From positions 1 to 31,065 of the IMG/VR virus record IMGVR_UViG_3300049855_000291: DNA of 31,065 bases, one strand, 5' to 3'. Below the pieces are notes generated by a model. It saw only the letters and a program-made list of their open reading frames with translations. It did no database searches and had not been told where the DNA came from. A program made the position numbers and the translations under genes. The stretch is from a virus. Positions 630-28,075 of this stretch are shown here, one piece after another. Numbering within the stretch: the first letter of the stretch is position 1; each line of letters starts with the position of its first letter.

Positions 630-2807
630 TTAGGGCTCCTCGCTGAGTGCTTTTCTGTATTCGGGGTCATTATTCCACAATAGGTGATGATATAACAGTA
701 CGCCTTTTGCTCCATAAGGTGCATATTTTTCAAAAATTTTCATGTACTTTTGAAATTGTGGTGAAGGGTTGTTCAATTTGTTTTCCAAGGCTTGCAAAGC
801 TTGTCTTGCTGGGATTGCTCGGTCGAGTGCGATAGATTTATCTATGATCCCTCGCGCTATTTTTCCACCCCGCTTGCTCATAGCCATTCCAGCCATGGTA
901 CCGGCTCCAGTCCCCACGATCGCTCCTGGAGCTCCACCTATTGCAGTGCCCAAAGTGCCACCAAAACCAGCTATAGCTGGCACGATATAACCAGTAGAGG
1001 GTCTCTCCTGATCGAATCTTTTGAGCACTCCCTGGTCTCTTATCTGTGTCTCATAGGGCAAGCTACCCTTAGGTCTTGGGACCATTTCGCCAAGTCTTGT
1101 CAATTGGTCTGCATATTCAGACCGAGAGGTTAATCCAGTCGGCGAATGCGATAAATTGTTGATTACTGTGTCCGCGCCAGTGTCCGTCAGACCTTTTATG
1201 TCTTTAGTTCTTAACTTGCTTTCGCTTAGATCATGCTCCGCCCAATTTAGGGCGTCAGATTCCTTCCTTAAATAACTTTCCTCGCCTTCCGATTTTATTT
1301 TATTAGCAAAATCCCTTAACTCAAGTTTTTTATCGACCAGTTCTCCGATCTCAGGACTCTCGGACGCAGTCGCATAATTTCGCAATTTACGCTCAACGTC
1401 CTCCCCTATAACTGGAGTCCCTTGATGCAATGCTTTTAGTGTACTAGCCCCCTTTTGCGGGGTTGAAAACATCTCAGCAACCTCCTCCGATGCCTTCGCA
1501 TAGGGAGCCATAATGTCCATGATTTGACGGTATTCTGATTTTGGCGACCCTGGTAAATTTTCCTCGCCTTGTTTTTTTAAAAAATCACTGACTCTCTCAG
1601 AGATATTTTTGGAGTGTTTACTTAATTGTGTGTCATATACCCCTGGGCTTAACTGGAAATTCCCTAATTCACTTCGCACTGATTGCATCCAATCTCTTAA
1701 CATTGGACCATTCATGAGTGGACCTTTTTCGTCCAAACGGATCAGTAAATCCTGTAAATTGGCCCTTCTTTGAGCCTCAGGAGCGGTATTGACTTTTATC
1801 GAGTCAATTTCATCCTGCACTAACTGTTTGACGTGACTAGTTCTGACTTTGATTTTAAGCTTGCCTAATGCCTCGTCAGCTGCGTTGCTTAAATAACCCT
1901 GCATAGCCTTATCTTCATCGACGAGTTTTTGAAATGCTTCTACTTCGTCAAGAGAAGGATTCATGCCTTCATTTATTTTGTCAGTTAATGTTTTTTTGGC
2001 TTGGGCTAGTGCGTCCTTCGTCTCTCTAACTCTAATCTCTGCTTTTTTAACTTGATTATGGACGACATCAGCATCATTCAAAATATCTTGTTTGATTGGA
2101 TCGAAGCCAGTAAATTCCCTTCCCTTTAATCGACCCTGGTTTTCAACATAATAGTTAAAATCGTCTGGTTTTACTTGGCCAAGAAATTGCGCTCCGGCTC
2201 TGACCGCAGCTTTAGGGGCTCTTCTGGCTCCCGATGCTGTAGATGATAGAGCCTTCTGTAGATAATGGCCTGTTTTACCGAAAGGAATCAGGTTAACTGG
2301 GTCTGCAGCGGTCCCTACCAGTGCACCTGTAATATCTGCTAGGCTAGACTTGCCTTCCTTAAATCGAGCATTGGGATTGCCAAAATTTTCTAGATCAGGG
2401 ACGGAGAGCGGTTTTTCCGACACCCCGTAATTTCCCATCAACTTACCCCACGTCGGTGCTGTGGTCGGGTCTTTTCCAAACTGTCCAGCTACAGCGCCAG
2501 CGATCTCTGGGACATTTTCAAACGCAAAGGCTTTAGGTGGGACCCAATTTTTACCTTGGTTTTGCTCCTCCACACTGAGCTCCTGCGCCTTTTTGACCCC
2601 TGCACGAAGGGGAGCGCCTACATAGGAGTCAGCAAACTCCGATATGGCTCCAATGGGAGCCACTAGGCTTCCCCAGGCTCTTTTTGGTGCTTCATTAGCA
2701 AAACTTTCTATAGGACCTTGCTCCTTGCGCATTATTTCTAGTTCTTCGCGCTTGCTCAAAGGTCCTTGCTGTTTTCGCAAAAGTTCTAGTTCTTCGCGTG
2801 GAGTCAT
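630..2807 (-). CDS. Large internal virion / DNA-ejection type protein
   Basis: This encodes 725 residues. It starts inside the upstream stop (ATGA overlap at 2804-2807) with a GGGAG site about 10 bases upstream. Residues 4-35 are two copies of a 16-residue repeat built on REELE(L/I)(L/M)RK(Q/E)QGP. Residues about 250-560 are mostly charged helix. Residues about 606-643 form a glycine-zipper segment (AIAGFGGTLGTAIGGAPGAI) able to enter a membrane, and the C-terminus has a second hydrophobic patch followed by WNNDPEYRKAL. Length, helical content and place after the portal and two other helical proteins match the ejection proteins of podoviruses, which are packed in the capsid and injected to form a trans-envelope channel. 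No lysozyme or protease motif was seen. The role is inferred from context and physical features. Confidence 0.75.
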   Translation of the reverse strand: MTPREELELLRKQQGPLSKREELEIMRKEQGPIESFANEAPKRAWGSLVAPIGAISEFADSYVGAPLRAGVKKAQELSVEEQNQGKNWVPPKAFAFENVPEIAGAVAGQFGKDPTTAPTWGKLMGNYGVSEKPLSVPDLENFGNPNARFKEGKSSLADITGALVGTAADPVNLIPFGKTGHYLQKALSSTASGARRAPKAAVRAGAQFLGQVKPDDFNYYVENQGRLKGREFTGFDPIKQDILNDADVVHNQVKKAEIRVRETKDALAQAKKTLTDKINEGMNPSLDEVEAFQKLVDEDKAMQGYLSNAADEALGKLKIKVRTSHVKQLVQDEIDSIKVNTAPEAQRRANLQDLLIRLDEKGPLMNGPMLRDWMQSVRSELGNFQLSPGVYDTQLSKHSKNISERVSDFLKKQGEENLPGSPKSEYRQIMDIMAPYAKASEEVAEMFSTPQKGASTLKALHQGTPVIGEDVERKLRNYATASESPEIGELVDKKLELRDFANKIKSEGEESYLRKESDALNWAEHDLSESKLRTKDIKGLTDTGADTVINNLSHSPTGLTSRSEYADQLTRLGEMVPRPKGSLPYETQIRDQGVLKRFDQERPSTGYIVPAIAGFGGTLGTAIGGAPGAIVGTGAGTMAGMAMSKRGGKIARGIIDKSIALDRAIPARQALQALENKLNNPSPQFQKYMKIFEKYAPYGAKGVLLYHHLLWNNDPEYRKALSEEP

Positions 2808-3808
2808 TTTGGTTTTGCTCCCTGTTTGGACTTACGCAAATTATATTCTTTTAATTCTTCTGGGGTGAGATCCGAGCCTCCCGCTGGCTGGGTACTACCT
2901 TGCGCTGGTCCAGGCCCCATGGGAAGCTTTACATCGCTATCTAAGTCCTCCATGGTCAGTAGCGGCCAACCCTTTTCCGCTCGCACCCTATTAGCTGCGT
3001 TAAGAACTAGTTCCTTAGTTTTTTCCATAGCCATTTTAAATGGCTCTGGGTCCATAGCTACAGTCGGCATAGAAGCAGCAATATTTTTTCGCTCGGAGTC
3101 CGATGCAGCTGATCCCGACAATTCTTTAACGCGCTCTTGTAGAGCTACCTTAGTATCAAAAAGCAATCTGCTAAATTCTGGCGATACGGTTTTACCAGCT
3201 GACGCCCATTTCTCATACAACCGGCCTTTTACAGGACCAGCGTAACCGTCTTTGTATGCCTTATCAAAATCGGCTTGCATGCGCTTAAATAGTCCAGCGT
3301 TTTGCTGTAGACCTATGGTTGCCGCTGTTGCTTGCCCATCGCCTTTAGACATCATGGGAGGCTTAGGAGCCGCTGTAGCTCTTACAGTAGGGACGGGACC
3401 TTGTATCCCACTCGATCGCACACTACCGTCAGGATCCTGGTATAGATATTCGTTTGCCGTGTTGCGCTGGGGAAGCAATTTGCCAATGGCTGTTTTAGGC
3501 TGGCTTTTAGTCAGGTAGTCCATGATCCGGGGATCCACCTGCCTTTGCTTTTCAATCTGCATAGCCGACTCTTTGAGAGGCTGTAGCATGCGCTGGCTTG
3601 CTTCGATATACGGAGATGCATCCGGAGTTTTCCCATGGACGGTCCCCAGCTGGGCCATTCCCCCAGCGAACCCACCCAAGGTCGCAGAGTCGATCGAGGC
3701 TTTTGAATACTCGTCGTAAGGATCATCTACACCCCGCTCGTTTTGCATTTGAGAGAGGAGTTTTCTTCGAACCATTTCGTCCATTTTGTATTTATTATTA
3801 TTCATCAT
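2804..3808 (-). CDS. Internal virion / ejection type protein
   Basis: The frame is open from 3949, but the likely start is ATG 3808 (MMNNNKYKMDEMVRRKL), preceded by an AAAGGCGG-type site and overlapping the upstream stop (3798) by 11 bases. This gives 334 residues. An N-terminal charged helix is followed by a Pro/Gly-poor linker. Residues about 190-290 form a helical domain holding the sequence ELSGSAASDSERKNIAASMP, a pattern I associate with the C-terminal helical domains of phage internal or ejection proteins. The C-terminus is polar (Gly/Pro then Lys-rich). It overlaps the 725-residue ejection protein by ATGA, so the two are coupled. An internal capsid or injected protein is the best inference; no enzymatic motif is visible. 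Confidence 0.72.
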   Translation of the reverse strand: MMNNNKYKMDEMVRRKLLSQMQNERGVDDPYDEYSKASIDSATLGGFAGGMAQLGTVHGKTPDASPYIEASQRMLQPLKESAMQIEKQRQVDPRIMDYLTKSQPKTAIGKLLPQRNTANEYLYQDPDGSVRSSGIQGPVPTVRATAAPKPPMMSKGDGQATAATIGLQQNAGLFKRMQADFDKAYKDGYAGPVKGRLYEKWASAGKTVSPEFSRLLFDTKVALQERVKELSGSAASDSERKNIAASMPTVAMDPEPFKMAMEKTKELVLNAANRVRAEKGWPLLTMEDLDSDVKLPMGPGPAQGSTQPAGGSDLTPEELKEYNLRKSKQGAKPK

Positions 3809-5123
3809 AAATCGACCGCCTTTTTTTGCGCTCCGAGGGTGACATCCACTGACCATTTTGGTCGTAGTATTGACGATCGTCCGCAGCGGTTTGCTGCGCT
3901 CCCCACTGATTCCTTGCTTGCTGGCCAGCATACATACTGCTAGCGGCATTGGTTACGCCTTGAACCTGGGTTGCCCTATCAACATCAGCTTGCCTTGCCG
4001 CGTCCCGCTCCATTCCAAGAGCTCCGCTCATAGCTCCTGCCCATTTGTACTGATCATCAAATTGCTGGCTAGCTATCCTATTTCGGTCTGCTCTCTGCTT
4101 TGCGGCCCAATTCGCTTTTCTCTCGGCTATATCATTTTGGAAGCCGCGCTCCCCTCTCAACATCGCGTAGCGTTCGCGCTCGATATCATCGGCTCGATTA
4201 CGCTCCCCTCTCGCCCACTCAGCACCGTATTTTGTCAGGCTGTCACTTCGATCAAGATTTGCTTCCTGAGCGCGATTACGATTTCCCACGTTACGGTTGG
4301 CTATATCTTGCTCATTTGCCAGGTTGGTCCGCTGCGCCTCATTCATCGACAGAGCGCGTCGGTTTTCATAATCCTGACGAGTTGAAGCCATTCTTCTATT
4401 AAAATCATTTATAATGGACGCATTTTTATCAGCGAGAGTCATTTCCTGATTATAAATCTGCCCACCAAGATTTGCTCCGGAGGCTAAGGCTTCAAGCCTC
4501 CTCCTCTGTGCATCGCTTGCCGCTTGCATTTGCGCTAAAGCTTGCTGATTACCAGCGGCCTGTCCAGCTTGCATCTCCCCAGCGAATTGCATCCCAGCGC
4601 CCAGCTGTCCCCGCCTTGCAAAACTCTGCTCCAAAGCTTGCTGTCTACCTCTTGTGTCCATACCTGCTTGCTGGCGAGCATTAAAAGCAGCTTGCGCAGA
4701 AATAGCATCATCTCCGGTCTCTCCCATGGCCATGTAGCGTTCAAGGGCCTTTTTCTGGGCGCTACGCCCTTCCAAGGCTTGCTGACTCTGCTTTACCAGT
4801 TCTGGGCTTTGCTCGGCAATGTAAGGCGCTAGCTCGGGGGTATACTTCCCGACAAGTTTTAAGTCCTCGGGAGTCAGCCTCGACGTGTCAAATTTTGGAG
4901 CCTGGGCTGGGTCCGAAAACCTGGGCTGGGCAAGGACTTGCTCATGATATTCCGGAGGAGCGTCGATAGAGACATCATAATCGGGCGGTTTTATTTTTTC
5001 AAAAAGCGCCCTGATTTCTTTCAGCCGTTTTCTGTCTGCTCCTCGCGCTCTTTCAGCGTTGTAAGCGTTGACCAAGGCCCCTGTGGTTAGTATCGCCGCT
5101 CCCACAACTAATGGTGCTACCAT
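3798..5123 (-). CDS. Ejection-type protein with N-terminal membrane segment and long helical repeats
   Basis: This encodes 441 residues, one base after the upstream stop, with AAGGA about 12 bases before ATG 5123. Residues 1-20 (MVAPLVVGAAILTTGALVNA) form a hydrophobic segment followed by basic residues, so the N-terminus may be membrane-inserting. Residues about 110-400 are almost entirely Ala, Gln, Asn, Arg and Glu, forming a long predicted helix or coiled coil with many NR and RN pairs. The C-terminus is strongly basic (SERKKRRSIYDE). This small hydrophobic head with a long helical body is typical of proteins stored in podovirus capsids and expelled with the DNA. It lies third in the portal/ejection run. 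Function is inferred from composition and neighbours. Confidence 0.75.
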   Translation of the reverse strand: MVAPLVVGAAILTTGALVNAYNAERARGADRKRLKEIRALFEKIKPPDYDVSIDAPPEYHEQVLAQPRFSDPAQAPKFDTSRLTPEDLKLVGKYTPELAPYIAEQSPELVKQSQQALEGRSAQKKALERYMAMGETGDDAISAQAAFNARQQAGMDTRGRQQALEQSFARRGQLGAGMQFAGEMQAGQAAGNQQALAQMQAASDAQRRRLEALASGANLGGQIYNQEMTLADKNASIINDFNRRMASTRQDYENRRALSMNEAQRTNLANEQDIANRNVGNRNRAQEANLDRSDSLTKYGAEWARGERNRADDIERERYAMLRGERGFQNDIAERKANWAAKQRADRNRIASQQFDDQYKWAGAMSGALGMERDAARQADVDRATQVQGVTNAASSMYAGQQARNQWGAQQTAADDRQYYDQNGQWMSPSERKKRRSIYDE

Positions 5124-5124
5124 A

Positions 5125-6906
5125 TTAGTAAGCCGTCCTTCCGTATTTGCCGAATGCTCCAGCTAAAGGATCATCCGGATCGTCTATTGGAGTTATTCCA
5201 CTAGGGGGGTATTGATCAGGGTAAAATGGCACGACATCGGGATTGGTCTCGATTTTAATCTGACCAGGTTGTCCTGGGCTTGGAATGTTTGCGGGAGTCC
5301 CTGGCATTCCTGGCATACCCCTAATTGCTTTACGCAGTGCTTCACGGTAACCAGCATCATCCCAAGTATAGCGTTGAGATCCTGCCTTACTACCGGCTCG
5401 ATATCTTGTCGGGTCCATGAGTTCTTCAGCGATTTGATTCATCTCCAAAGCTTCCGCTTCCGTAAGGAAGTCCTCCGCGTTGCCTGAGCTAGGACCTAGG
5501 TCTTTGTAAAATTGGTTGATATCGACCATGTTGGGGTCTACTTGGAAGTTGCCAAATTCACGGCCCACCTGACCAGCTGCGGCATTTGCATAAACCCTTG
5601 GATCCGGTAGAGGAGCGTTGAATTTACCCATAGCCTCCACTATGCGGTCGACGATCTCCTTTTTTCTACCCTGCGCTTTGGTGTCCGCAGCTTCGTTTAT
5701 TCCCGATGCTTTTCCAAAGAGCGCTTTAATGTAGTCCTCTGTTTTAAAGCTTGCTGGACCAGCCGGTTTAGAACCCGCGACTTTTGCCGCTCCACCTTGA
5801 CCTAAAAGTCCCATGATCGCGTTGAATCGGGTCGCTTCCTTCTCGTCGAAGAAATTATCGGCAGTTATCCCCGCCGTACTCGATACGTTTAAAAAGCTAG
5901 CAGGATCGATCCCGAATGCGGCCATGGCTTCAGGAGTAAGGTATTTCGCCAGGTCTGGCCTCTCGATTTTTACCTCATTAATCCGCTTAGAGATCTCCGG
6001 ATTTTTGAGCGATTCATCGATAAATGCCGCCCTTCTAGCAGGGTCCTCGCTCATGGCTTTTACGTCGCCCTGAAAACCCTCTAGCTCCTTAGTTTGAGCA
6101 CCCTCGATAATCGCTTTTTGATCAGCAAGATATTTCTTGATCGCGGTTTGAGCAGTGGTCAGATTTTCTTTACCCGCCTTTGCTACTGTCGCCTCGACCC
6201 CAGTGTCCTGGTTGGCATAACTTGCCGCTTTTTTTGTCAGGTCTTGTTGGCGACCCTCTAAATTCCTGAGGGTCTCGTAAAATTGGGGGTCGGCCCGAAG
6301 GACGCCAGTGTCAAAAACAGCCTGACCAGCTGAGTAGCTCGGACCATACTGGCTTCGCAGGTAACCGGATATTCCTGGGGTCGATTTAAAATTCTCGATG
6401 TCCTCGATATTGTAGTCAGTCTGAGGAGCCCATGCTTTAACAGGCTTGGGAGCCGCTTGACTGATCGTGGTCGCCACTTTGCTGCGCTTGTCAGCATCAC
6501 CCCCAATGGCCGCTTCGACATCGGCATCGGGGATATCATAAATCTGGTCGGCCTTGCCCGTCTCAACATACTTATTAGCCTCCTCTTGCAGCTTCGTGTC
6601 TGCAGCTGTCAGGTTGGCTGATGTCTGCGACATGGCCGGCATGACACCCTGGGCTTTAGGCTGTTTTTGTGCAGCTTCATAGGCTCTCTGGGCACCTGCG
6701 TTTTGTTGCTGGGGAGTTGCAAAGCTTTTGGGAGATCCCCCGGATCCGGAGCTAATATCACCCTCGATGCTCGACTTCACCTCGCCTTGCGTCCCTTGGG
6801 TCGATTGCACCTGGCTGTCGCCTTGCTGCGCATTGGGATCTCCCCCAAAGATATTGGCCTTTGGGTTGTTCATTTGATTCATGATTTTTTCAAAAGCGTA
6901 GGCCAT
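5125..6906 (-). CDS. Large putative internal virion protein, Gln/Ala-rich
   Basis: This encodes 593 residues. Its ATG overlaps the portal stop (TAATG at 6906), with GGAG seven bases upstream. The N-terminus (MAYAFEKIMNQMNNPKANIF) leads into a low-complexity Gln/Ser/Gly region to about residue 100. A helical, charged middle domain (about 130-470) follows, and then a Pro/Gly/Asp-rich tail of about 60 residues (GMPGMPGTPANIPSPGQPGQ). No catalytic motif was seen. It is the first gene after the portal and the first of four consecutive large helical proteins, the place where ejection or core proteins are usually encoded in podoviruses. It could alternatively be a portal-associated plug or core protein. 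I do not recognise the family. Confidence 0.72.
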   Translation of the reverse strand: MAYAFEKIMNQMNNPKANIFGGDPNAQQGDSQVQSTQGTQGEVKSSIEGDISSGSGGSPKSFATPQQQNAGAQRAYEAAQKQPKAQGVMPAMSQTSANLTAADTKLQEEANKYVETGKADQIYDIPDADVEAAIGGDADKRSKVATTISQAAPKPVKAWAPQTDYNIEDIENFKSTPGISGYLRSQYGPSYSAGQAVFDTGVLRADPQFYETLRNLEGRQQDLTKKAASYANQDTGVEATVAKAGKENLTTAQTAIKKYLADQKAIIEGAQTKELEGFQGDVKAMSEDPARRAAFIDESLKNPEISKRINEVKIERPDLAKYLTPEAMAAFGIDPASFLNVSSTAGITADNFFDEKEATRFNAIMGLLGQGGAAKVAGSKPAGPASFKTEDYIKALFGKASGINEAADTKAQGRKKEIVDRIVEAMGKFNAPLPDPRVYANAAAGQVGREFGNFQVDPNMVDINQFYKDLGPSSGNAEDFLTEAEALEMNQIAEELMDPTRYRAGSKAGSQRYTWDDAGYREALRKAIRGMPGMPGTPANIPSPGQPGQIKIETNPDVVPFYPDQYPPSGITPIDDPDDPLAGAFGKYGRTAY

Positions 6907-8864
6907 TATCTGACTCCTTCAAGTAGATCCCTAGCCGTGTCCGCAGTCGGAAGCGCTGGCATGTCCTCAATTTTGGAGCCGTCCATTTCACCACCTTCGG
7001 GAGGCATCGGGGGAGGAGGAGCTCCAAGTCCACCTTCTGGCATTTTCCCCGTTCTGATCATGGCTGTCAGGGTTGGGTCCTGGTCCATGGCCAGCCTGTA
7101 ATGCTCCTGAATATGCTCGAGGAAGATCTGGTTATACTGCCCATGTAGGCGAATTCGTGGATCATTTAGAGCGCCAGCATGTTTTTTCATATGTTTTGGG
7201 TGATCGTCAGTGATCAAACTCGGCACCTGATTGCCCTTAGACATCTCCTCATTTTCTGCCTCGATCAGGTCGTCCTCGGACAACTCGTCTTTTGTCAGCT
7301 GGGACAATGGCTGACCTTCTAAGATGCTGACATAATCTCCCCACAAATCCCTAGGCATTTGTAAGAGTTTTTCAGATATCTCAAGGCGACCTGCGATGGT
7401 CTGCATAAGCGGGTTTTGCATGCCGATTCGGATCCCAGCAATCGACTTGAGATCCGCTCCCGTGTAGGACTTTGCTGTAAGCTGGTTGTTAGTCCCCGAC
7501 ATCATCACCTTACGCTCAATACCACTGCCAAAAGTAACAAGACAGTTAAGAGCATGTTTAACTGATCGGGATATACAATCATTCATCGCTTCTTGAAGGG
7601 ACGTAGTAAACTCAATTGCATTTGCTGAGAGTGTCGCAATCGCAACACCTGACGAGGCTCCGGAAGGAGGAGCACCTCGTAATGCACCATTTAAGTTTAT
7701 CATTTTCATCATCTGATTTTCCATAAAATCAGCGAATTTATAGTTATCCGGCGATGATGACATCAGATTTAGGACTTCGGGTTTTCCACCACCAGGAATA
7801 TTTTGTGGAGTGTAAAAAGTAAACCGCATCCCCCCTATTTCCTGCACGTTAACATTGGCAGAGCGAGGGACCGCGATGTTTTGGACGGCAAATGCTGACA
7901 GGTTGGTCGCCTGGGCGGAGATCGAGTTATCAAACATCTCTTGGCATGCCATGAGGTTTGAATACTGGGGATATCCGAGAGTCGCTCCCATGACTTGCTC
8001 GGGGATCATAGGCTCTACGGGGATAGTGCCATATGCGTTATGACCATCGTAATAAATGCATTTTGGCCCCGAATACATGATCATGCGCCCTTTAGGGATT
8101 GCAGCGCATGGTCTGACGTAGAGCTCCCAACAGTAAATCATGTCGTCATTTTGAGTAACCCTCTCAAACCATGACCTGACACCTGAGACGGTAGCCATGG
8201 CAGGAATTGCGAGGATCTCGTCGGTCAACTCTGGGTGTTGCGCGATCAAATCCCACCGGCTTTTCACGGTCCGGACTTCCACCCATGGCACGTCGTCCCA
8301 CACGGGGATAGTGCTGTCGTAATAGACATCGAAGGGAGTATGGACTGTCATGTCCACTTGCCCTTCGTAAATCACAGCACCGTCCTCGTCTAGGATCGGC
8401 TCATTATCGCCCTTGTCAGTGCGTAGGCGGGTATACATAAAGGCTATACCCGCGACGATCGCGCATTCTGTCAGCTGTTTTTTCTTGTGATCGAGTCTCT
8501 GGGTCTCGACAATCTGAGCAGCAACCGCGTTGCCGAGTTTGATCGTGTCCATAATTTCGTTATTCATGACTTCCGCGAGGGCTTTAAGACTCAGGGGATT
8601 TTTAGTCACAAGTGTGACCATTTGCCTGGTCATAGTCCGGGCTTGAGGGGTATACATCCGGACGAGCTCGCCTTGGAGTCCTTCGAATATCAAAGACGTG
8701 TCCCAGGATCCGGGATGCAATATAGGGGAGTAGTAGGCCAGGATATTGCGGACCCATGCGGTCCTAAAGGGTGACGTGGAGTAGATCCCCCACTCGTTAT
8801 GAATCTTTGCGAGTTGGTCACAGATTTTATCGCCTTCGCCTAATAGCCAAAATTCATTTTTCAT
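6906..8864 (-). CDS. Portal protein (head-tail connector)
   Basis: This encodes 652 residues; the TAATG overlap with the nozzle gene stop and an AAAGGGTG site fix the start. The portal forms the dodecameric channel at one capsid vertex through which TerL pumps DNA. Support is the length, a basic helical N-terminal third (residues about 30-150 include NPLSLKALAEVMNNEIM), the wing-like stretch HTPFDVYYDSTIPVWDDVPWV near residue 200 that podoviral portals typically carry, a central segment QMMKMINLNGALRGAPPSGA where channel/clip helices would lie, and an acidic, Pro-rich C-terminal tail ending near the EDMPALPTADTARDLLEG stretch. Its place between nozzle and ejection genes agrees with a portal, although the order is unusual. 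This is a family-level call by sequence resemblance, not by a search. Confidence 0.82.
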   Translation of the reverse strand: MKNEFWLLGEGDKICDQLAKIHNEWGIYSTSPFRTAWVRNILAYYSPILHPGSWDTSLIFEGLQGELVRMYTPQARTMTRQMVTLVTKNPLSLKALAEVMNNEIMDTIKLGNAVAAQIVETQRLDHKKKQLTECAIVAGIAFMYTRLRTDKGDNEPILDEDGAVIYEGQVDMTVHTPFDVYYDSTIPVWDDVPWVEVRTVKSRWDLIAQHPELTDEILAIPAMATVSGVRSWFERVTQNDDMIYCWELYVRPCAAIPKGRMIMYSGPKCIYYDGHNAYGTIPVEPMIPEQVMGATLGYPQYSNLMACQEMFDNSISAQATNLSAFAVQNIAVPRSANVNVQEIGGMRFTFYTPQNIPGGGKPEVLNLMSSSPDNYKFADFMENQMMKMINLNGALRGAPPSGASSGVAIATLSANAIEFTTSLQEAMNDCISRSVKHALNCLVTFGSGIERKVMMSGTNNQLTAKSYTGADLKSIAGIRIGMQNPLMQTIAGRLEISEKLLQMPRDLWGDYVSILEGQPLSQLTKDELSEDDLIEAENEEMSKGNQVPSLITDDHPKHMKKHAGALNDPRIRLHGQYNQIFLEHIQEHYRLAMDQDPTLTAMIRTGKMPEGGLGAPPPPMPPEGGEMDGSKIEDMPALPTADTARDLLEGVR

Positions 8865-13161: not shown

Positions 13162-13395
13162 TTATCCTACCGCTAAAGGTATGGTTGTCCCGCTCTTTAT
13201 TTCAGCGTCCTTTTTTACTGCTAAAACCCAATCTTGCCCTAAATATACTTCACAATCTAACCACTTCTTAATCTCTCTTACACACCCACCCTCTAAATAC
13301 AAAATCATTTTGTTTTGTTCAGGCTCATATCTATGACCTATAACTTTTTGCTTTTGCCATAAAAACCCTCTTTTCCACTTAAAAACATACGACAT
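13162..13395 (-). CDS. Small conserved-looking phage protein, unknown
   Basis: This encodes 77 residues starting at the ATG that overlaps the tail-fibre stop (TAATG at 13395); no strong ribosome site is visible, so coupling is likely. The sequence has KWKRGFLWQKQKVIGHRYEP, then an MILYLEGGCVREIKKW strand-turn-strand and a QDWVLAVKKDAEIKSG segment, giving a compact mostly-beta fold. Proteins with this K-W-K-R...G-H...L..G..R.I..W pattern are common next to phage structural genes, but I know of no assigned role. AT content is higher here than in the flanking genes. A small virion-associated or assembly factor is a guess from place only. Confidence 0.7.
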   Translation of the reverse strand: MSYVFKWKRGFLWQKQKVIGHRYEPEQNKMILYLEGGCVREIKKWLDCEVYLGQDWVLAVKKDAEIKSGTTIPLAVG

Positions 13396-15083
13396 TAATT
13401 AGCTCGCATTAAATACACTGCGTTTATATATGTAGGTAAAATACTAAAAGAAGTTAAAGAGCCGTTTGTATAATTGACTGTTACCGAGTGAGTATGAGAC
13501 GCCTCAGCTGCAGTATTACCTGAGATAGTTTGAGCCGCTGCAGTTCCCGAGAGACTGTGAGTGTGATCTCCTACACCGTCAGTGCTATTGCTACTCGGAT
13601 TGATACCAGGGTCACCCGTATTTGAGATAAAAAAACCACCGGCAGAGTTAGTCCTTGTTTGGATGGTATGGCTATGACCACCCGCGCCAAGCGCTGTTCC
13701 AGAGATAGAACTAGTGCTGTTACTCAAACCAGAGGCACCATGGCTGTGAGAACTACCGGCACCTGAAGTCCCCGAGGAGGTTAAAGAAGGAATATTTGCA
13801 GCTGCAAGTGTGACCGACGAAGCACCGCTTATGGTATTGCTTGAAGTCGAATTTCCACGGAGAAAAGCGTTGTTATTGATGTTGGGGACAACCTGGCCCG
13901 ACATGGCTCCACTTGCTAAAGTTTGCCCTTGGCATAAAACAAAACCATTGGTGTCTGGATTTGTCGTGGCCACTGTACTGTATGCGCCCGTCAAATGCGG
14001 GAATGTTGCGATCACTGAGCCTAAAGGCAAAAGTCCGACTGCGCTCCATGTCGGTGCCGCTACACCATTGGTGCGTAAAACCTGACCACTGGTCCCAGCT
14101 GCAAGTCGGACCGCAGCACCTCCAGTGTCCCCGTAGATAATATCGCCCTGAGTGGTCATTGGGTTGGTTAAAGGACTTGTCCAAGTCAAACCGGAAGCCT
14201 GTGCAGAATTCGCTGTCAAAACTGTCCCGTTCGCACCTACTGCGACGCGAACATCATCGGTGCCGTCGTTACTGACAAGGTCGCCTTTGGTCGTGAGCGG
14301 AGATAGCGCGTTAAAAGCCAATGTTGCTGTTATTTGCCCTGTGCCGCCTCGGTTGATCGGAAGGGTGTTGATTGTCCCACCATCAATAGGAAGTCCCGTT
14401 CCGCTAGTCAGGACTATGGCAGAGGGAGTCCCCAGGGCTGGGGTGACTAGCGTCGGGCTATTCGCAAACACCAAAGCGCCCGTCCCAGTCTCGTCGGTCA
14501 CTGCGCTGGCGAGGTTTGCACTGCTTGGAGTCCCAAGCCATGTTGCGACTCCAGCACCAAAAGACGATATCCCCGTCCCGCCTTTTGAGACTGGCAGGAT
14601 CCCCACAAAGTCTGCAGGAGTGACTTGTCCAGGAGCGATGAATGGGCCAAAGGTATCCCAGTTGGTCCCGGTAAATACTAAGACGACACCCGTATAATTG
14701 GACGATAAAACAAGGCTTGCAGCGCCTTTTATTGTCTCAGCACCGTTCGGTGTAATGGTTATGTTATTGGTCCCGGCATCGCCTTTTCCATCGACGATGA
14801 TAAAGACCTGCTTTGCGGCACCCGCGGGAAGGTTGATAGCCACGGCTCCGGCTACTGTCAGGTTGGACACCACCACGCAGTCTGTCGTAGCGCTGACTGT
14901 CACGGGACTTGTGACCGCGACTCTGGCCGCAAACTTCTGGAAGCTAGTCCCTTGGGCACTATCAGCGAGTGCTTGAAGGAAGCTAGATAGCTGGGTCCAG
15001 TTGAGCTCGTTATTGAGAGGAATATTGTAACTGGTTACGACGGGGTTAGTTCCACCACTCGGCCATTGTTTTGAAATTGGCAT
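13395..15083 (-). CDS. Tail fibre with collar-like domain and HxH C-terminal region
   Basis: This encodes 562 residues, with AGGAG nine bases upstream of ATG 15083. An N-terminal attachment part (residues 1-150) is followed by SKGGTG (166-171) and NRGGTG (244-249) fibre repeats. Two ~42-residue modules follow (about 262-304 and 308-350; TTKGDLVSND and TTQGDIIYGD). A tail-collar-like domain spans about 352-412 (LPLGSVIAT, then FVLCQGQTL and NNNAFLRG). The C-terminal part carries four HxH pairs (446/448, 470/472, 507/509, 530/532) and ends LPTYINAVYLMRAN. In T4 long fibres similar HxH pairs coordinate metal ions along a trimeric needle. The protein therefore probably recognises the host surface as a trimer. 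It lies directly after an intrinsic terminator that follows the capsid gene. Confidence 0.85.
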   Translation of the reverse strand: MPISKQWPSGGTNPVVTSYNIPLNNELNWTQLSSFLQALADSAQGTSFQKFAARVAVTSPVTVSATTDCVVVSNLTVAGAVAINLPAGAAKQVFIIVDGKGDAGTNNITITPNGAETIKGAASLVLSSNYTGVVLVFTGTNWDTFGPFIAPGQVTPADFVGILPVSKGGTGISSFGAGVATWLGTPSSANLASAVTDETGTGALVFANSPTLVTPALGTPSAIVLTSGTGLPIDGGTINTLPINRGGTGQITATLAFNALSPLTTKGDLVSNDGTDDVRVAVGANGTVLTANSAQASGLTWTSPLTNPMTTQGDIIYGDTGGAAVRLAAGTSGQVLRTNGVAAPTWSAVGLLPLGSVIATFPHLTGAYSTVATTNPDTNGFVLCQGQTLASGAMSGQVVPNINNNAFLRGNSTSSNTISGASSVTLAAANIPSLTSSGTSGAGSSHSHGASGLSNSTSSISGTALGAGGHSHTIQTRTNSAGGFFISNTGDPGINPSSNSTDGVGDHTHSLSGTAAAQTISGNTAAEASHTHSVTVNYTNGSLTSFSILPTYINAVYLMRAN

Positions 15084-20819: not shown

Positions 20820-23108
20820 TTAAAAGTCTTTTGATTTTTCATATAACAATCTCTCAGCCTCTTCGCGAGTAAATACCACCTTACCGTTTTCATCCACGAT
20901 CGTCCCATCAAATTTGCTAAACAGCTTCGGGACCGCCTTCCCCTTCACGGCCTCCTTGACCTTGGGGAATAGCTTCGCTTGCTCGGCTTCGTGGGATGGA
21001 CGGCCTTTGTACATCTTGTCTTGGAGATCTTTTGATTGATCAAAGACTGTATCTGATCGGCCAAAAGGTTGGTCCTCAGATAGCGCATCCATCATACGTT
21101 TTACCGCTGGGTGCCTCTTGCTCATGATCGCTTGGTCTCGACCAAAATATTTATCAAGGTCGTTATATGCTTTCCACCCTGAAGAATATTCATCAAGTTG
21201 AGAGTCCAAAGCTTCATTAGCATGCATTTTTCTGAGCATGTCATAATCAGCTATTTTTGACTCTGGACCGGAAAGTCCCGTGATCGATCGCTGATCTTCT
21301 TTAAGTCCCAGCATCTTTTCAAACCCGTATTCATTCGTAATTCCCTTATTTCGCTCATACCGATATCTCACAAAATTTGCCAACGCCTGTTTTTGCTCTG
21401 GACTTGCATTTTGTAATTTCGGATCAGCCAAAATCTTTGTAATCGTTTGCTCAACCGGATCCATTTGCGCTTCAACATAGTTTCTCTTAGGCACGTCCTC
21501 CCTGATCACGTTTGGCCTACTATCCGGCAAAAACTCACTCTGCCCTACATCCCCAAACGCCTTCCCACGCTCGTCCATGCGGGAGGGTGCTACGTCCAGC
21601 TGGGAGCGGATTGCTGCGAATTTGTCAGGCTGGCGGGGGAGCGAAGCCTCGGGGTCGCCTTTGGGACCTTTAGGGGGATCGACTCGTTCCGGCCTAGGCT
21701 TATTACCCGTTATGTCGTCAATCCTGTCCTGTATCTTTACAAACTCAGGATCATCTCGGCTTAACCGATTTAATTTAAAATACAATTCATCTAGCTCACT
21801 ACCTTTAATATTTTTTGAACCCTTGGGAAATTTAATTCTTTGTCTGTCTTTGTCTATTACGTAGATTAGTTTGTCATATTGATCGTTCAGGTAGCGGTCC
21901 TCTGGGGAACCTGATCGAGGCTTTAATGGGTTTTTGGCCAAATTATCCTTGGCTTCGACATATTTTTCTATAGCTTCGTTTAAATCTAAATTATCCCTAT
22001 TTAGTTTTTTAAATTGATCGAGACTTTTTTCAAACTCTTGCCGACTGTCAAATTGATCATACCATCCACCTTTGGTAAGTGAGCTACCAATAGGAAGCTC
22101 GACGACTTTTAACGGGGTTTTAGGTTTTGGCGCAGGAGGCTCGACTATCTTAGGCTTGTTTTTCCTATCCTGTATCCTCTTTAACGCTTCATCAATGGCT
22201 TGTTGATTTTTTGCTGCGTCTAATTCTTCTTCATCTTTTAAAATTTTTCCCCATCTTTCTTTTTCTGCTTTTCTTAGCGCTTCTTCTTCTTCAAGTCGCT
22301 GTTGCTTTGTTTGCTTGCCTATGGGATTTTTCGTTTTCATCGCTTGCGCGAATTCTTTGAGTTTTGTCCACTCTTGGCCATGCTCCTCAGCTTTTTTCAA
22401 CAAAGCCTTAAATTGCTCTTCTTTTCCTGGTAGTGGTCGATACCCCTCATGGGCTGGGTGTCTCGGACCACCTACCTTTTTCCCGTTTTGGATTGGCTCG
22501 GAAGTTGGATCAATCAATTTTCGTGCAGCTTCGATGTACTCTTTTTCTTTTTGATTGTGATATTTCAAAGGATCTTTTTTTAGAAGATTGCTCTCTTGCT
22601 CCAATGTTTCCTTTGTTACATCGCGGTAAGACCCGCCTGTCGGCAATTCTACAGGCTCAGCCTTCCCCGCTTGCTCCGCAATAATCTTAGCCGCGTTCTC
22701 AGGGTCCTCGACATGCATCGCCTTGCTTATTTTCCTAAACTTCCCCTTTTTCATCAGCTTCGCGACCGCTGGTAGGGGGATCAGAGTTGCAGCTACGTCA
22801 AACTCAGTCTGGGGGACAATCATGCTATGCGCTGCGCTAGGCACTGCAGCAAGACCCGCTCCCAAGTCCTCAAACCCAGCCTTGGCTAGTGGATCCACAA
22901 CTCGCCTCTGCAGCATGTCGTCAAACTCCTCCTGGGCAAACTGGCCTGGGGGGAATGGGACGTTGTAGGGTTGGAGCTCGTCAGGTAAAGGCTGGGTGCT
23001 AGTCTGATCCTTATAATGCTCCGCGATCATCCTGCGCTTTTCCTCGGTATCCCTGTCAGGATTGTAGGGGGTCACTCCAAACGTCGAGCGGATGCGAGGA
23101 AAGTCCAT
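20820..23108 (-). CDS. Large charged protein of unknown function, polyvalent-type
   Basis: The frame is open from a GTG at 23117, but ATG 23108 has AGGTG six bases upstream and is preferred. This gives 762 residues, starting MDFPRIRSTFG. A DNA-packaging-like position (between the small- and large-terminase candidates) does not fit its composition. It is very rich in Lys, Glu, Asp and Pro. It has one hydrophobic patch near residues 100-125 (TEFDVAATLIPLPAVAKLMK), long charged helices with a Gln/Lys/Glu coiled coil at about 255-320, a PEPPAPKPKTP-like linker and Pro/Lys/Gly-rich segments near 470-500. No catalytic motif was seen. The hydrophobic patch loosely resembles one in the 725-residue ejection protein (AADPVNLIPFGK), so it may be an injected internal protein. 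This is inference. Confidence 0.72.
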   Translation of the reverse strand: MDFPRIRSTFGVTPYNPDRDTEEKRRMIAEHYKDQTSTQPLPDELQPYNVPFPPGQFAQEEFDDMLQRRVVDPLAKAGFEDLGAGLAAVPSAAHSMIVPQTEFDVAATLIPLPAVAKLMKKGKFRKISKAMHVEDPENAAKIIAEQAGKAEPVELPTGGSYRDVTKETLEQESNLLKKDPLKYHNQKEKEYIEAARKLIDPTSEPIQNGKKVGGPRHPAHEGYRPLPGKEEQFKALLKKAEEHGQEWTKLKEFAQAMKTKNPIGKQTKQQRLEEEEALRKAEKERWGKILKDEEELDAAKNQQAIDEALKRIQDRKNKPKIVEPPAPKPKTPLKVVELPIGSSLTKGGWYDQFDSRQEFEKSLDQFKKLNRDNLDLNEAIEKYVEAKDNLAKNPLKPRSGSPEDRYLNDQYDKLIYVIDKDRQRIKFPKGSKNIKGSELDELYFKLNRLSRDDPEFVKIQDRIDDITGNKPRPERVDPPKGPKGDPEASLPRQPDKFAAIRSQLDVAPSRMDERGKAFGDVGQSEFLPDSRPNVIREDVPKRNYVEAQMDPVEQTITKILADPKLQNASPEQKQALANFVRYRYERNKGITNEYGFEKMLGLKEDQRSITGLSGPESKIADYDMLRKMHANEALDSQLDEYSSGWKAYNDLDKYFGRDQAIMSKRHPAVKRMMDALSEDQPFGRSDTVFDQSKDLQDKMYKGRPSHEAEQAKLFPKVKEAVKGKAVPKLFSKFDGTIVDENGKVVFTREEAERLLYEKSKDF

Positions 23109-25006: not shown

Positions 25007-25231
25007 TTAATCAGGTAGGCCATCGATGAATTTGCGGACTCGGTCGTAAGTCTCGTCGTCCACGGGAAAAGAACCTGGACTATATTCCGTAATCCACGTG
25101 AAACCCACCATTTTCACTTCTTTAATTTGGCCATCATCCTCCTTGTACCGATCGATCCTGGCATTTACCGTGATGACGTTGTCAAGGTTGATTGCATGAG
25201 AGTTTTTTCCAGATACAATTTTGAGCCACAT
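25007..25231 (-). CDS. Small beta-rich protein, unknown
   Basis: This encodes 74 residues starting MWLKIVSGKNSHAINLDNVI, with a strong AAGGGGTGA site just before ATG 25231. Alternating hydrophobic strands (NVITVNARIDRYKEDD, KEVKMVGFTWITEY) are followed by a short acidic helix (DDETYDRVRKFID). It is not recognised. It is the first gene downstream of the iteron region, so it probably shares its leftward transcription. Confidence 0.62.
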   Translation of the reverse strand: MWLKIVSGKNSHAINLDNVITVNARIDRYKEDDGQIKEVKMVGFTWITEYSPGSFPVDDETYDRVRKFIDGLPD

Positions 25232-25303
25232 AATTCACCCCTTCGTTTTTAAGTGGCCGACTCCATACCGCCAAATGGCTTGAGTAAGCTAGAGGTTTTG
25301 GTT

Positions 25304-25576
25304 TGTTCCAGTTGTGTTCCACAGGAATAAACTACTTTCTGTTCATCTGGAACATTGTTTTTTCTCTGTACTTATATTTACTTATATTCTTTTGTTCCAG
25401 TTGTTCCAGTTGTTCCAGTTAAGAGAGAGAGTAAAGAGAACAAAGAGAGGGAGGAGACACAGTGTTCCACAGACCCTCTAGGGAGAACCGTTTTATCTGG
25501 AACAAGTGGTACACGACTGATTTTGTTAATCAATCGACTGGAACACAACTGGAACACAACTGGAACAACTGGAACA
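25304..25576. repeat. Iteron cluster with AT-rich repeats: candidate replication origin
   Basis: Within the gene-free stretch 25232-25622 the heptamer TGTTCCA occurs six times (starts 25304, 25315, 25393, 25402, 25411, 25463) and its complement TGGAACA six times (25348, 25498, 25539, 25550, 25561, 25570). Within runs, starts are 9 or 11 bp apart. The left run (25393-25417) and the right run (25539-25576) are inverted copies. A tandem ACTTATATT(T/C) decamer (25370-25389) in an AT-rich stretch borders the left run, and 25420-25462 is a purine-rich tract. Such iterons plus an AT-rich element are typical of protein-dependent origins; the helicase and primase genes lie directly upstream. The use as origin is an inference. 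Confidence 0.65.
25370..25389. repeat. AT-rich tandem decamer, possible unwinding element
   Basis: ACTTATATTT is followed by ACTTATATTC with no gap, three bases before the first triple iteron. AT-rich tandem repeats next to iterons are usual sites of first DNA opening. Inferred only. Confidence 0.5.
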
Positions 25577-25622
25577 TTCTCAGTCATTTCAGGTTATGTG
25601 AATAATATCGCTGTGTTAGTTT

Positions 25623-27224
25623 TTAATCCTTCACGAGAGTAGCGTAGGCATCTTCGCTGCGTTTTTGAAGAATAGCATAAGTAGGCTGGTCCGCTATAGG
25701 GCTGGCGAACCAAAAACACCTTAAAGAAAGACAGCCGATTCTCTTTTTGTCCAAAGATATTAAGCCAGCTTCAATAGCTTGCTTTTTAACAGACCGCCCA
25801 GTCCCCCCTCCACGATTACTCCTATAGCGTAGGCCATGAAAATCAAAATACCAATCGCTGACAATTTCAGTTGTAATTAAAATGTTAAACTTTTCTGGGG
25901 AAAGTATAAAATCATCACGACCATTTTCTATGGTCTGCTCAATATCTTTTTTATAAGCTTGAGGGACTTTATAACTTATTATCCTGGAATAGATAAAATC
26001 CCTAAATGCAACATGCTCCTCAGTCCTATCGACTAACCTCGCCTGATCAAGTTTGATCCCAGCACCGACGTCCTCACCCAGCTTATGCAGGATGGTCCGC
26101 TCCCACTCGGGAAATCTTGTAACGCATGGCCTGTCGAGATTGATCATAGGCATGGTCAGGTAATAGGCGCATTCGGCCACAACGGGCATACGCATTGTGT
26201 CGATGAAAGTAAGTACATTATGCTTGTACCAAGTGGTCCCTGGCCGAATGAAGTCCATTCTGCCCGTTACAGACCTACTCCCTAGATCTACTGTCAGGTG
26301 AGGGTTGTTGGCTGTCAGGATCCAAGTAGCGTGATTCTCGACCATCCTGTTACCCACACCATGGACATGACCCTGAAGGTATTTCGATGTCACGTAACGC
26401 TCGATGATGTCGCTGTTGAACATCTTTTTGACGTTATCTAGCCTGAAAATTCTTTTATTGGCATTGGCCATGAGATTGATAATAAACCGACTCGGCTCGT
26501 CGCAGACATTCAGGTCACACGGACTGAAAAAGAGTTCTTGGACCATCTCGACGAAGGTCGATTTGCCGATTTGTATCGTCTGGTCCGCGTCGGGGGGGCC
26601 AGCGATTACAAAGAGCGGACGCTTACCCTGTCCCTCGCTCCATGCCGCGGTTATGACGATCGCCTTCATGATCAGTCGGTCGTGTGCTGTCAGCGGGTTG
26701 AAGAAATCAATAAACGCATCGAGCGCTCCCGTGTAGGCAGGGACAATGGGGGGACTACAATGGATTTGCCCTGGTCCCTCTGGCCAGGTGGGGAGATCGG
26801 TCACAGTGCGGACGGGTGTAGCTCGGTTACGAATGCTAGTGAAGAATGGGTCCCACCTGACTTTTAAAGCCATGTCCCGATTCTTGAAATCGACAAAATA
26901 CCCACGGTCATTAATCGCAGATTCTAGCTGTTTACCGTCCTCTACAAAGCGCATCGACCGCCAGCCAGGGCGCTCGGTGTCCTCGACGATATCGCATAGT
27001 TTGTGATTGTAGCGGACCATACCAGGAAAGTTTTCCTGAAACTCCTCAGCGAGCTCGCCCATGGTCTTGGGCATAAAGACGGGACGCTTATTTGGCTCGT
27101 AGGGTAACTCCACGTAGTTACTAAAGACCTTAATGCCTGACGATTCTTTTGTGGTTTGCTCAATTTTTTCTTGCTTTTTTCGCCCAGAAGTGAGAATTTC
27201 GGGCGGTAAATTTATGTCGGACAA
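25623..27224 (-). CDS. Replicative ATPase / SF3-like helicase
   Basis: This encodes 533 residues, starting at a TTG (27224) with AAGGAG seven bases upstream; no ATG with a ribosome site is nearby. The ATPase core has an extended P-loop at about 209-223 (GPPDADQTIQIGKST), a Walker-B-like strand at about 258-264 (RIFRLDN), a sensor 1 ILTANN at 302-307 and an arginine-finger region SRSVTGRMDFIRP at about 316-328. The set matches the helicase parts of D5-type primase-helicases and SF3-like AAA+ proteins, which unwind DNA as hexamers. It follows a separate primase gene by 35 bp, so the usual fused protein is here split in two. Odd: about six extra residues between GPP and GK in the P-loop, and a Walker B ending in Asn. 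Confidence 0.8.
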   Translation of the reverse strand: MSDINLPPEILTSGRKKQEKIEQTTKESSGIKVFSNYVELPYEPNKRPVFMPKTMGELAEEFQENFPGMVRYNHKLCDIVEDTERPGWRSMRFVEDGKQLESAINDRGYFVDFKNRDMALKVRWDPFFTSIRNRATPVRTVTDLPTWPEGPGQIHCSPPIVPAYTGALDAFIDFFNPLTAHDRLIMKAIVITAAWSEGQGKRPLFVIAGPPDADQTIQIGKSTFVEMVQELFFSPCDLNVCDEPSRFIINLMANANKRIFRLDNVKKMFNSDIIERYVTSKYLQGHVHGVGNRMVENHATWILTANNPHLTVDLGSRSVTGRMDFIRPGTTWYKHNVLTFIDTMRMPVVAECAYYLTMPMINLDRPCVTRFPEWERTILHKLGEDVGAGIKLDQARLVDRTEEHVAFRDFIYSRIISYKVPQAYKKDIEQTIENGRDDFILSPEKFNILITTEIVSDWYFDFHGLRYRSNRGGGTGRSVKKQAIEAGLISLDKKRIGCLSLRCFWFASPIADQPTYAILQKRSEDAYATLVKD

Positions 27225-27259: not shown

Positions 27260-28075
27260 CTAACTTCGCTGGCTTTGTTTTTTTCTAAACGCGGACTTAA
27301 CTGAGTCCTGTATCTCTTTATCATCAAAATCGTTCCGGTCAAAAGGGGAATCAGCCAGCATTTTCAATATTTCGTCTTTAGAGAGACCTTGTCTTATCAG
27401 ATATTGAGCGCTGACGTAAACCGAAGAATTCCTTGAGTCCCCGAAAACTTTACCATCCCTTAAAAATTCAACTACATGCCTCGGTAGGGGGGCTCCCGGC
27501 CTCTGGGCGTATGCAGCCATGCGGGATTTACAAATCTCAACCTGCCTGTCGTGCTTGGTCGCAGCGATCACTGGCAGGGCTTCCCCATCGGCCTCAATAT
27601 GGACGAGCTCGCGACATGGGTAGAACTGCCTCCCTAGGTCCACGCCAGCCTGGTCAGCATCAGGCAGGACATCATGCACGTAGTGGCGCATGGTCACCTG
27701 ATAGTCGAGGGGATCGTCGATCCTGCGCTCGAAGGGGATCAGGACCCTAAACCTGTCTCTGGGAGGCTCGGTGTTTTTCGGTAGCTGATGAGACTTGGTG
27801 GTCGCGATCATATACTTTAGACCTGCGAGATCTCGCATCGCTCGTTTGATCGTGTACTCGTCCTCCCCGTTTTCCATTTTATTATCGAAGTCGAGTCCGC
27901 AAATATCACTAAAAACGAAGTTGTCGCCTAGCCTGTAATTCCGCGCAAAGATAATGGGACTCCAAGTGTATTGACTGATTACGTCCCATAGATCTCTCGC
28001 GTGACGGTTTTGGAATGGGACGAATCCCCAAGGGATATTAGTGCATCCCTTTGTTGCTTTGTTGTAAGAGATCAT
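27260..28075 (-). CDS. Archaeo-eukaryotic-type primase with PriCT-like C-terminus
   Basis: This encodes 271 residues, with AAGG before ATG 28075. Motif I is a paired acid strand CGLDFDN (D62, D64), motif II is TKSH (93-96) ending in the expected His, with a DRFRVLIPF strand after it, and motif III lies at DQAGVDLG (D141, D146). These are the catalytic marks of the AEP (PrimPol-like) fold. Residues about 215-265 (SAQYLIRQGLSKDEILKMLA and on) look like a PriCT domain. The enzyme would make primers, or also polymerise, for the helicase encoded just downstream. No DNA polymerase is seen in the window, so this protein may carry more of the synthesis or rely on the host's. Motif reading by eye; the family assignment is well supported. 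Confidence 0.82.
   Translation of the reverse strand: MISYNKATKGCTNIPWGFVPFQNRHARDLWDVISQYTWSPIIFARNYRLGDNFVFSDICGLDFDNKMENGEDEYTIKRAMRDLAGLKYMIATTKSHQLPKNTEPPRDRFRVLIPFERRIDDPLDYQVTMRHYVHDVLPDADQAGVDLGRQFYPCRELVHIEADGEALPVIAATKHDRQVEICKSRMAAYAQRPGAPLPRHVVEFLRDGKVFGDSRNSSVYVSAQYLIRQGLSKDEILKMLADSPFDRNDFDDKEIQDSVKSAFRKKQSQRS

Follow-up and report, generated by a model that had tools for sequence, protein, structure and literature searches.

In PICIs, the initiator gene is followed immediately on its 3' side by the replication origin, in which two sets of iterons surround an AT-rich region, an organisation described as shared by no other known bacterial replicon (PMC6092414). The Rep protein of the SaPIs reportedly recognises its downstream origin via the C-terminal domain, and the C-terminal domain of SCCmec Cch2 is likewise reported to bind downstream repeats (PMC7581432). 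In the RepA-ori system of the V. cholerae PLE, the specificity of the initiator varies together with the origin, and the two are exchanged in modular fashion, a process that an origin-directed nuclease may drive (PMC8263062). Here we describe an array of short repeats directly 3' of a helicase gene in an environmental phage, together with the arrays of its relatives.

The DNA analysed, referred to as the window, is an entire IMG/VR record of 31,065 bp. Because it encodes a terminase, a portal and an SU10-like adaptor of its own, it is regarded as a tailed phage rather than a satellite. The heptamer TGTTCCA/TGGAACA occurs exactly 12 times between positions 25304 and 25576, six times on each strand, and only two further sites are present in the whole window, against an expectation of 3.8. 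No other 7-mer of the window is as strongly clustered as TGGAACA, which reaches 12 copies within 300 bp; dinucleotide shuffles, 40 of the whole window and 1000 local ones, gave at most 4. Along the window, successive heptamers are spaced 11, 33, 45, 9, 9, 52, 35, 41, 11, 11 and 9 bp apart. The intergenic gap that holds them is exactly 25232–25622 (391 bp), with the end of a 74-aa ORF at 25231 on one side and the helicase stop at 25623 on the other, and the array starts 46 nt past this stop.

The first-pass annotation had described twelve heptamers, six per orientation, spaced 9 or 11 bp inside the runs, which the exact-site count, the shuffles and the measured spacings bear out. It had also placed the array directly downstream of the helicase, as is confirmed by a gap that begins at the helicase stop, and had noted an AT-rich tandem decamer and a purine-rich tract, both of which were found. 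The description of the region as free of genes is correct for the gap as such, but two mechanically predicted ORFs, composed largely of repeats, cross it (25355–25642 on the plus strand and 25378–25587 on the minus strand). Similarly, the arrangement as two inverted runs agrees with six copies per strand, but the order is more complex and reads +++++ ---- + -- in the direction of the helicase. The features of the locus are listed in the table.

Table. Features of the helicase gene, its neighbours and the iteron array in the window.
Feature	Position	Strand	Basis or remark
Small AEP-like DNA primase, 271 aa, directly upstream of helicase	27260..28075	-	phrog_2135 5e-10, phrog_1883 2.9e-10
AAA+/SF3-D5-like helicase, 533 aa, proposed iteron-binding initiator (Rep)	25623..27224	-	Walker A QIGKST, RxDNV
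Iteron set I, four TGTTCCA in helicase direction	25539..25576 (starts 25570, 25561, 25550, 25539)	-	Exact sites
Fifth iteron, direction as set I	25498..25504	-	Exact site, comparison with relatives
Single opposite iteron, missing in G001	25463..25469	+	Exact site, comparison
Purine/pyrimidine tract	25421..25457	.	Holds AGAGAGTAA at 25426-25434 (TTACTCTCT on helicase strand)
Iteron set II, three copies, period 9	25393..25417	+	Exact sites, comparison
AT-rich stretch, 38 bp, probable unwinding element	25355..25392	.	Up to 78% AT
Single iteron, far side of AT-rich stretch	25348..25354	-	45 bp from set II in window and G001, 45-46 bp in G013
Two terminal iterons	25304..25321	+	Exact sites, comparison
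74-aa ORF within exchanged block	25007..25231	-	No tblastn match in G001

The AT-rich stretch is flanked by set II on one side and by the single and terminal iterons on the other, and it contains the tandem decamer ACTTATATTT/ACTTATATTC at 25370–25389. DUF5906 matches the helicase below the cut-off in the three closest members, i.e. the window and two relatives, and the family assignment is weak. PDB sequence and profile searches with the helicase gave no match, the PF05272 (VapE) domain was not matched in the window or in G001, the closest relative described below, and no recognisable similarity to the EcCICFT073 Pri-Rep was seen. The primase contains LDFD and TKSH, which by eye correspond to AEP motifs, and has a PriCT-1-like end, with PriCT_1 below the cut-off. 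AlphaFold models of the two proteins from two-sequence alignments were too poor, with pLDDT values of 34 for the helicase and 47 for the primase. Searches of the phage collection found neither a DNA match nor a helicase relative, and no helicase relatives were found in genome contigs. An Rfam search of the sequence gave no match. In the Manatee Spring phage, which has a distant primase, no helicase is annotated directly after that primase, and this phage was left out of the comparison.

The most informative comparison is with G001 (IMGVR_UViG_3300020042_010726), a record of 37.7 kb that is probably complete because it has a 121-bp terminal repeat. G001 has about 88–100% DNA identity to the window, for the most part 90–100%, across nearly the full window length. 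Outside two patches described below, the one long segment of the window without any match in G001 is 25007–27163, which comprises helicase codons 21–533, the array and the 74-aa ORF. The boundary of the exchange is situated inside the helicase gene (27164–27224), after about 20 conserved codons (MSDINLPPEILTSGRKKQEK). At the swapped block G001 has a helicase that is only 39–40% identical to that of the window, and the difference is distributed unevenly, with 48% identity in the AAA+ part and 28% in the C-terminal part. The greater C-terminal divergence is as expected for a changed iteron specificity. The array of G001 is built from a different heptamer, TGTAACA, which is present 11 times in the order +++++---+-- in helicase direction. 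Several intervals are nevertheless common to both arrays: 8–9 bp within the triple, 45 bp spanning the AT-rich stretch, 33–34 bp and 10–11 bp.

Two further patches are strongly diverged between the window and G001, at 13395–14142 (one end of a tail-fibre-like gene) and at 20981–22663 (the middle of a 765-aa protein whose gene spans 20.8–23.1 kb). Strong divergence is common for surface genes. The window also lacks approximately 6.5 kb that G001 has (about 1873–8373 in G001), between the places that match the end and the start of the window. The window record is therefore probably incomplete and derived from a circularly permuted genome.

A second relative, G013, has a terminase that is 86% identical to that of the window, a primase that is 52% identical and a helicase that is 64% identical. 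Its array contains GTACCA 12 times, ten of them as TGTACCA, in the order ++++++---+-- and with intervals of 45–46 and 32–33 bp. The TTACTCTCT block before the iteron triple is identical in the window, G001 and G013, and the AT-rich stretch is partly conserved among the relatives. Three more helicase relatives (L162, L164 and L165) were identified by tblastn at 52%, 29% and 26%, respectively. Directly 3' of their helicase genes they carry arrays of GTACCATTA (nine copies), TGTTTCGGAT (six to eight copies) and GTGAGCCTCA (11 copies), and for each of these none of 1000 shuffles was as strong. Every one of the six family members found thus has an iteron array that directly follows its helicase gene, and all six arrays beat 1000 shuffles, with words that are mostly different.

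The heptamers of the window and G013 differ by one base, and more distant pairs differ more. The helicases of G013 and L162 are 57% identical, and the two share an iteron word. Across the family, helicase similarity appears to track the similarity of the iteron words, as a trend rather than a strict rule. In the helicase tree the window groups with G013 (0.98), and in the primase tree it groups with G001 (1.0). This conflict indicates that the helicase travelled with its array, as one cassette and independently of the primase. Absence of the repeats from relatives had been named in the first-pass annotation as an argument against an origin; the word does change from relative to relative, but the layout is conserved.

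An origin function of the putative iterons is strongly supported by this conserved layout, by the presence of an array directly after the helicase gene in each of the six members and by the joint exchange of the cassette, in line with the original proposal. From these comparisons we consider it highly probable that the gap 25232–25622 is a replication origin and that the helicase encoded at 25623–27224 is the initiator that reads its iterons. The first-pass annotation had suggested the primase or the helicase as the binding protein, and of the two the helicase is favoured. The primase is 91% identical between the window and G001 while every iteron has changed, which makes it an unlikely reader. 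Most other proteins shared by the two phages are also nearly unchanged (87–100% identical), although the whole set of iterons was altered together, and this makes the helicase the natural candidate. The same figures weigh on the possibility that the array is an origin read by another phage protein, such as the primase or a small DNA-binding protein, with the helicase merely recruited. Small unassigned proteins are present in both phages, and the link between helicase and iterons could be positional only; yet the 74-aa ORF, the sole other gene of the exchanged block, is absent from G001, and we regard a different reader as improbable.

Repeated protein-binding words beside genes could also be operators, here regulating transcription of the helicase operon or of downstream genes, and there are two weak promoter-like matches at the edges of the gap. 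These matches are at chance level (2 versus 1.3), and the array contains no terminator. An origin fits better with 11–12 sites over 270 bp, a conserved AT-rich centre and a location 3' of the helicase in six members, so that a purely regulatory array is very unlikely. A further proposal is that the recognised feature is not the heptamers but a large hairpin into which the inverted repeats would fold, for which there is a precedent in the structure proposed for pRN1 (PMC4234260). Single-strand folding does exceed that of shuffles for each of the three closest relatives (z −4.8 to −6.0), but such folding is expected from any set of inverted iterons, and the pairing predicted for one relative is not that predicted for another. 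The tandem period of 8–9 and the fixed single sites fit the spacing of a bound protein, and we give the hairpin a very slim chance. Finally, repeats by themselves are no proof of function, and the array could be a partition site, a packaging site or a neutral repeat expansion. The location 3' of the helicase is common to all six members, and the fact that every copy changed along with the helicase, together with the conserved intervals, argues strongly against neutral expansion. We therefore consider that the array is almost certainly none of these three.

With the array read as an origin and the helicase as its initiator, the C-terminal region of the helicase would most likely bind the TGTTCCA iterons, and the protein may assemble on them as rings. 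It could then open the AT-rich stretch and unwind outward, after which the neighbouring small AEP-type primase would prime synthesis. No DNA polymerase was recognised among the genes scanned, and the polymerase of the host is therefore probably used. The cumulative GC-skew of the window and of G001 has its minimum near the helicase; this minimum is shallow, is confounded by the direction of the genes and shifts once the curve is detrended.

More tentatively, and with somewhat less than even confidence, we suggest that helicase and array make up a cassette of 'origin identity' that ordinary tailed phages can exchange. The positional skeleton and the AT-rich stretch would be kept, while the word would be rewritten in all copies together with the DNA-binding part of the helicase, perhaps as an escape from rivals or nucleases that imitate the former word, for which PLE satellites offer a precedent. 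The three related phages with one layout and the words TGTTCCA, TGTAACA and TGTACCA, two of them otherwise nearly identical, amount to a natural experiment. The protein-DNA code of a putative self-loading helicase becomes directly testable through swaps of the C-terminal part and of the iterons.

Arrays in the same position were also seen next to helicases of another family. Two unrelated contigs, G006 and G010, each have a mixed-orientation TGTTCCA array that directly follows a VapE helicase gene on its 3' side. Of 12 named VapE phages that were sampled, most have an array of some short word in the gap after the helicase, and these words include GTCAACA, GTAGACA, GTTGTTA, TCGGTAG and CGGTAAC; three of the 12 have no clear array, and a few arrays are weak. 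Origins in unannotated phage genomes may be found by a simple rule, namely a repeat array that directly follows a D5-like helicase gene.

Most contigs that hold TGTTCCAGTTGTTCCA contain single pairs or same-strand repeats only, and about ten have mixed-strand arrays. In the viral contigs L017/L040, L053, L064, L108 and L122, mixed-strand TGTTCCA arrays of 10–17 copies occur with spacings of, for example, 8, 9, 11 and 22. Neither a VapE domain nor a relative of the window helicase is present on these records, some of which carry terminase, SU10 portal or ArdC genes. Two integrase-bearing contigs, L022 and L084, have three plus three TGTTCCA iterons adjoining the integrase gene, and in L022 a DUF927 gene is located about 3.5 kb away. 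A seven-copy TGTTCCA array lies between endolysin and serine recombinase genes in L020 (G003), a record that also encodes a VapE helicase. A literature search found no paper naming TGTTCCA iterons.

Several described systems share parts of the organisation of the window. The PLE origin is built from three ~30-bp iterons and is served by a RepA_N initiator that is not a helicase-initiator, whereas the proposed initiator of the window is a helicase. SCCmec Cch2 resembles our proposal in that a D5-type helicase acts specifically on short direct repeats located just past its operon (PMC7581432). It has three iterons, of 5 nt each, and a primase pair of the polymerase type, compared with 12 heptamers and an AEP-like primase in the window. 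The phages with VapE/D5 helicases (for example Paenibacillus phage Pd_22F, Lactobacillus phage PLE2, APSE-1, and Streptococcus phages IPP36 and CHPC1282) likewise have short-word arrays within the few hundred bp that directly follow the helicase gene, with a helicase of another family (PF05272) and other words, and their arrays are known here as repeats alone. In phage P4, alpha is a fused primase-helicase initiator that reads short repeats in both orientations at two separate sites, ori and crr. The window differs from P4 in its separate primase and helicase genes and in its single TGTTCCA cluster, although the record may lack approximately 6.5 kb.

The closest correspondence is with the pri-rep-ori modules of SaPIs and PICIs, represented by SaPIbov1, SaPI5 and EcCICFT073 (PMC6092414). 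There, as in our reading of the window, primase and initiator helicase are adjacent or fused, and the origin lies directly 3' of rep, with iteron sets flanking an AT-rich stretch; EcCICFT073 has this layout with GGTAGA/TCTACC words. The window differs in being a full tailed phage, in its iteron words and in its separate blocks with a long helicase-proximal run. The best reading of the locus is a SaPI/PICI-like rep-ori module, which would extend the PICI-like origin to a full environmental phage.
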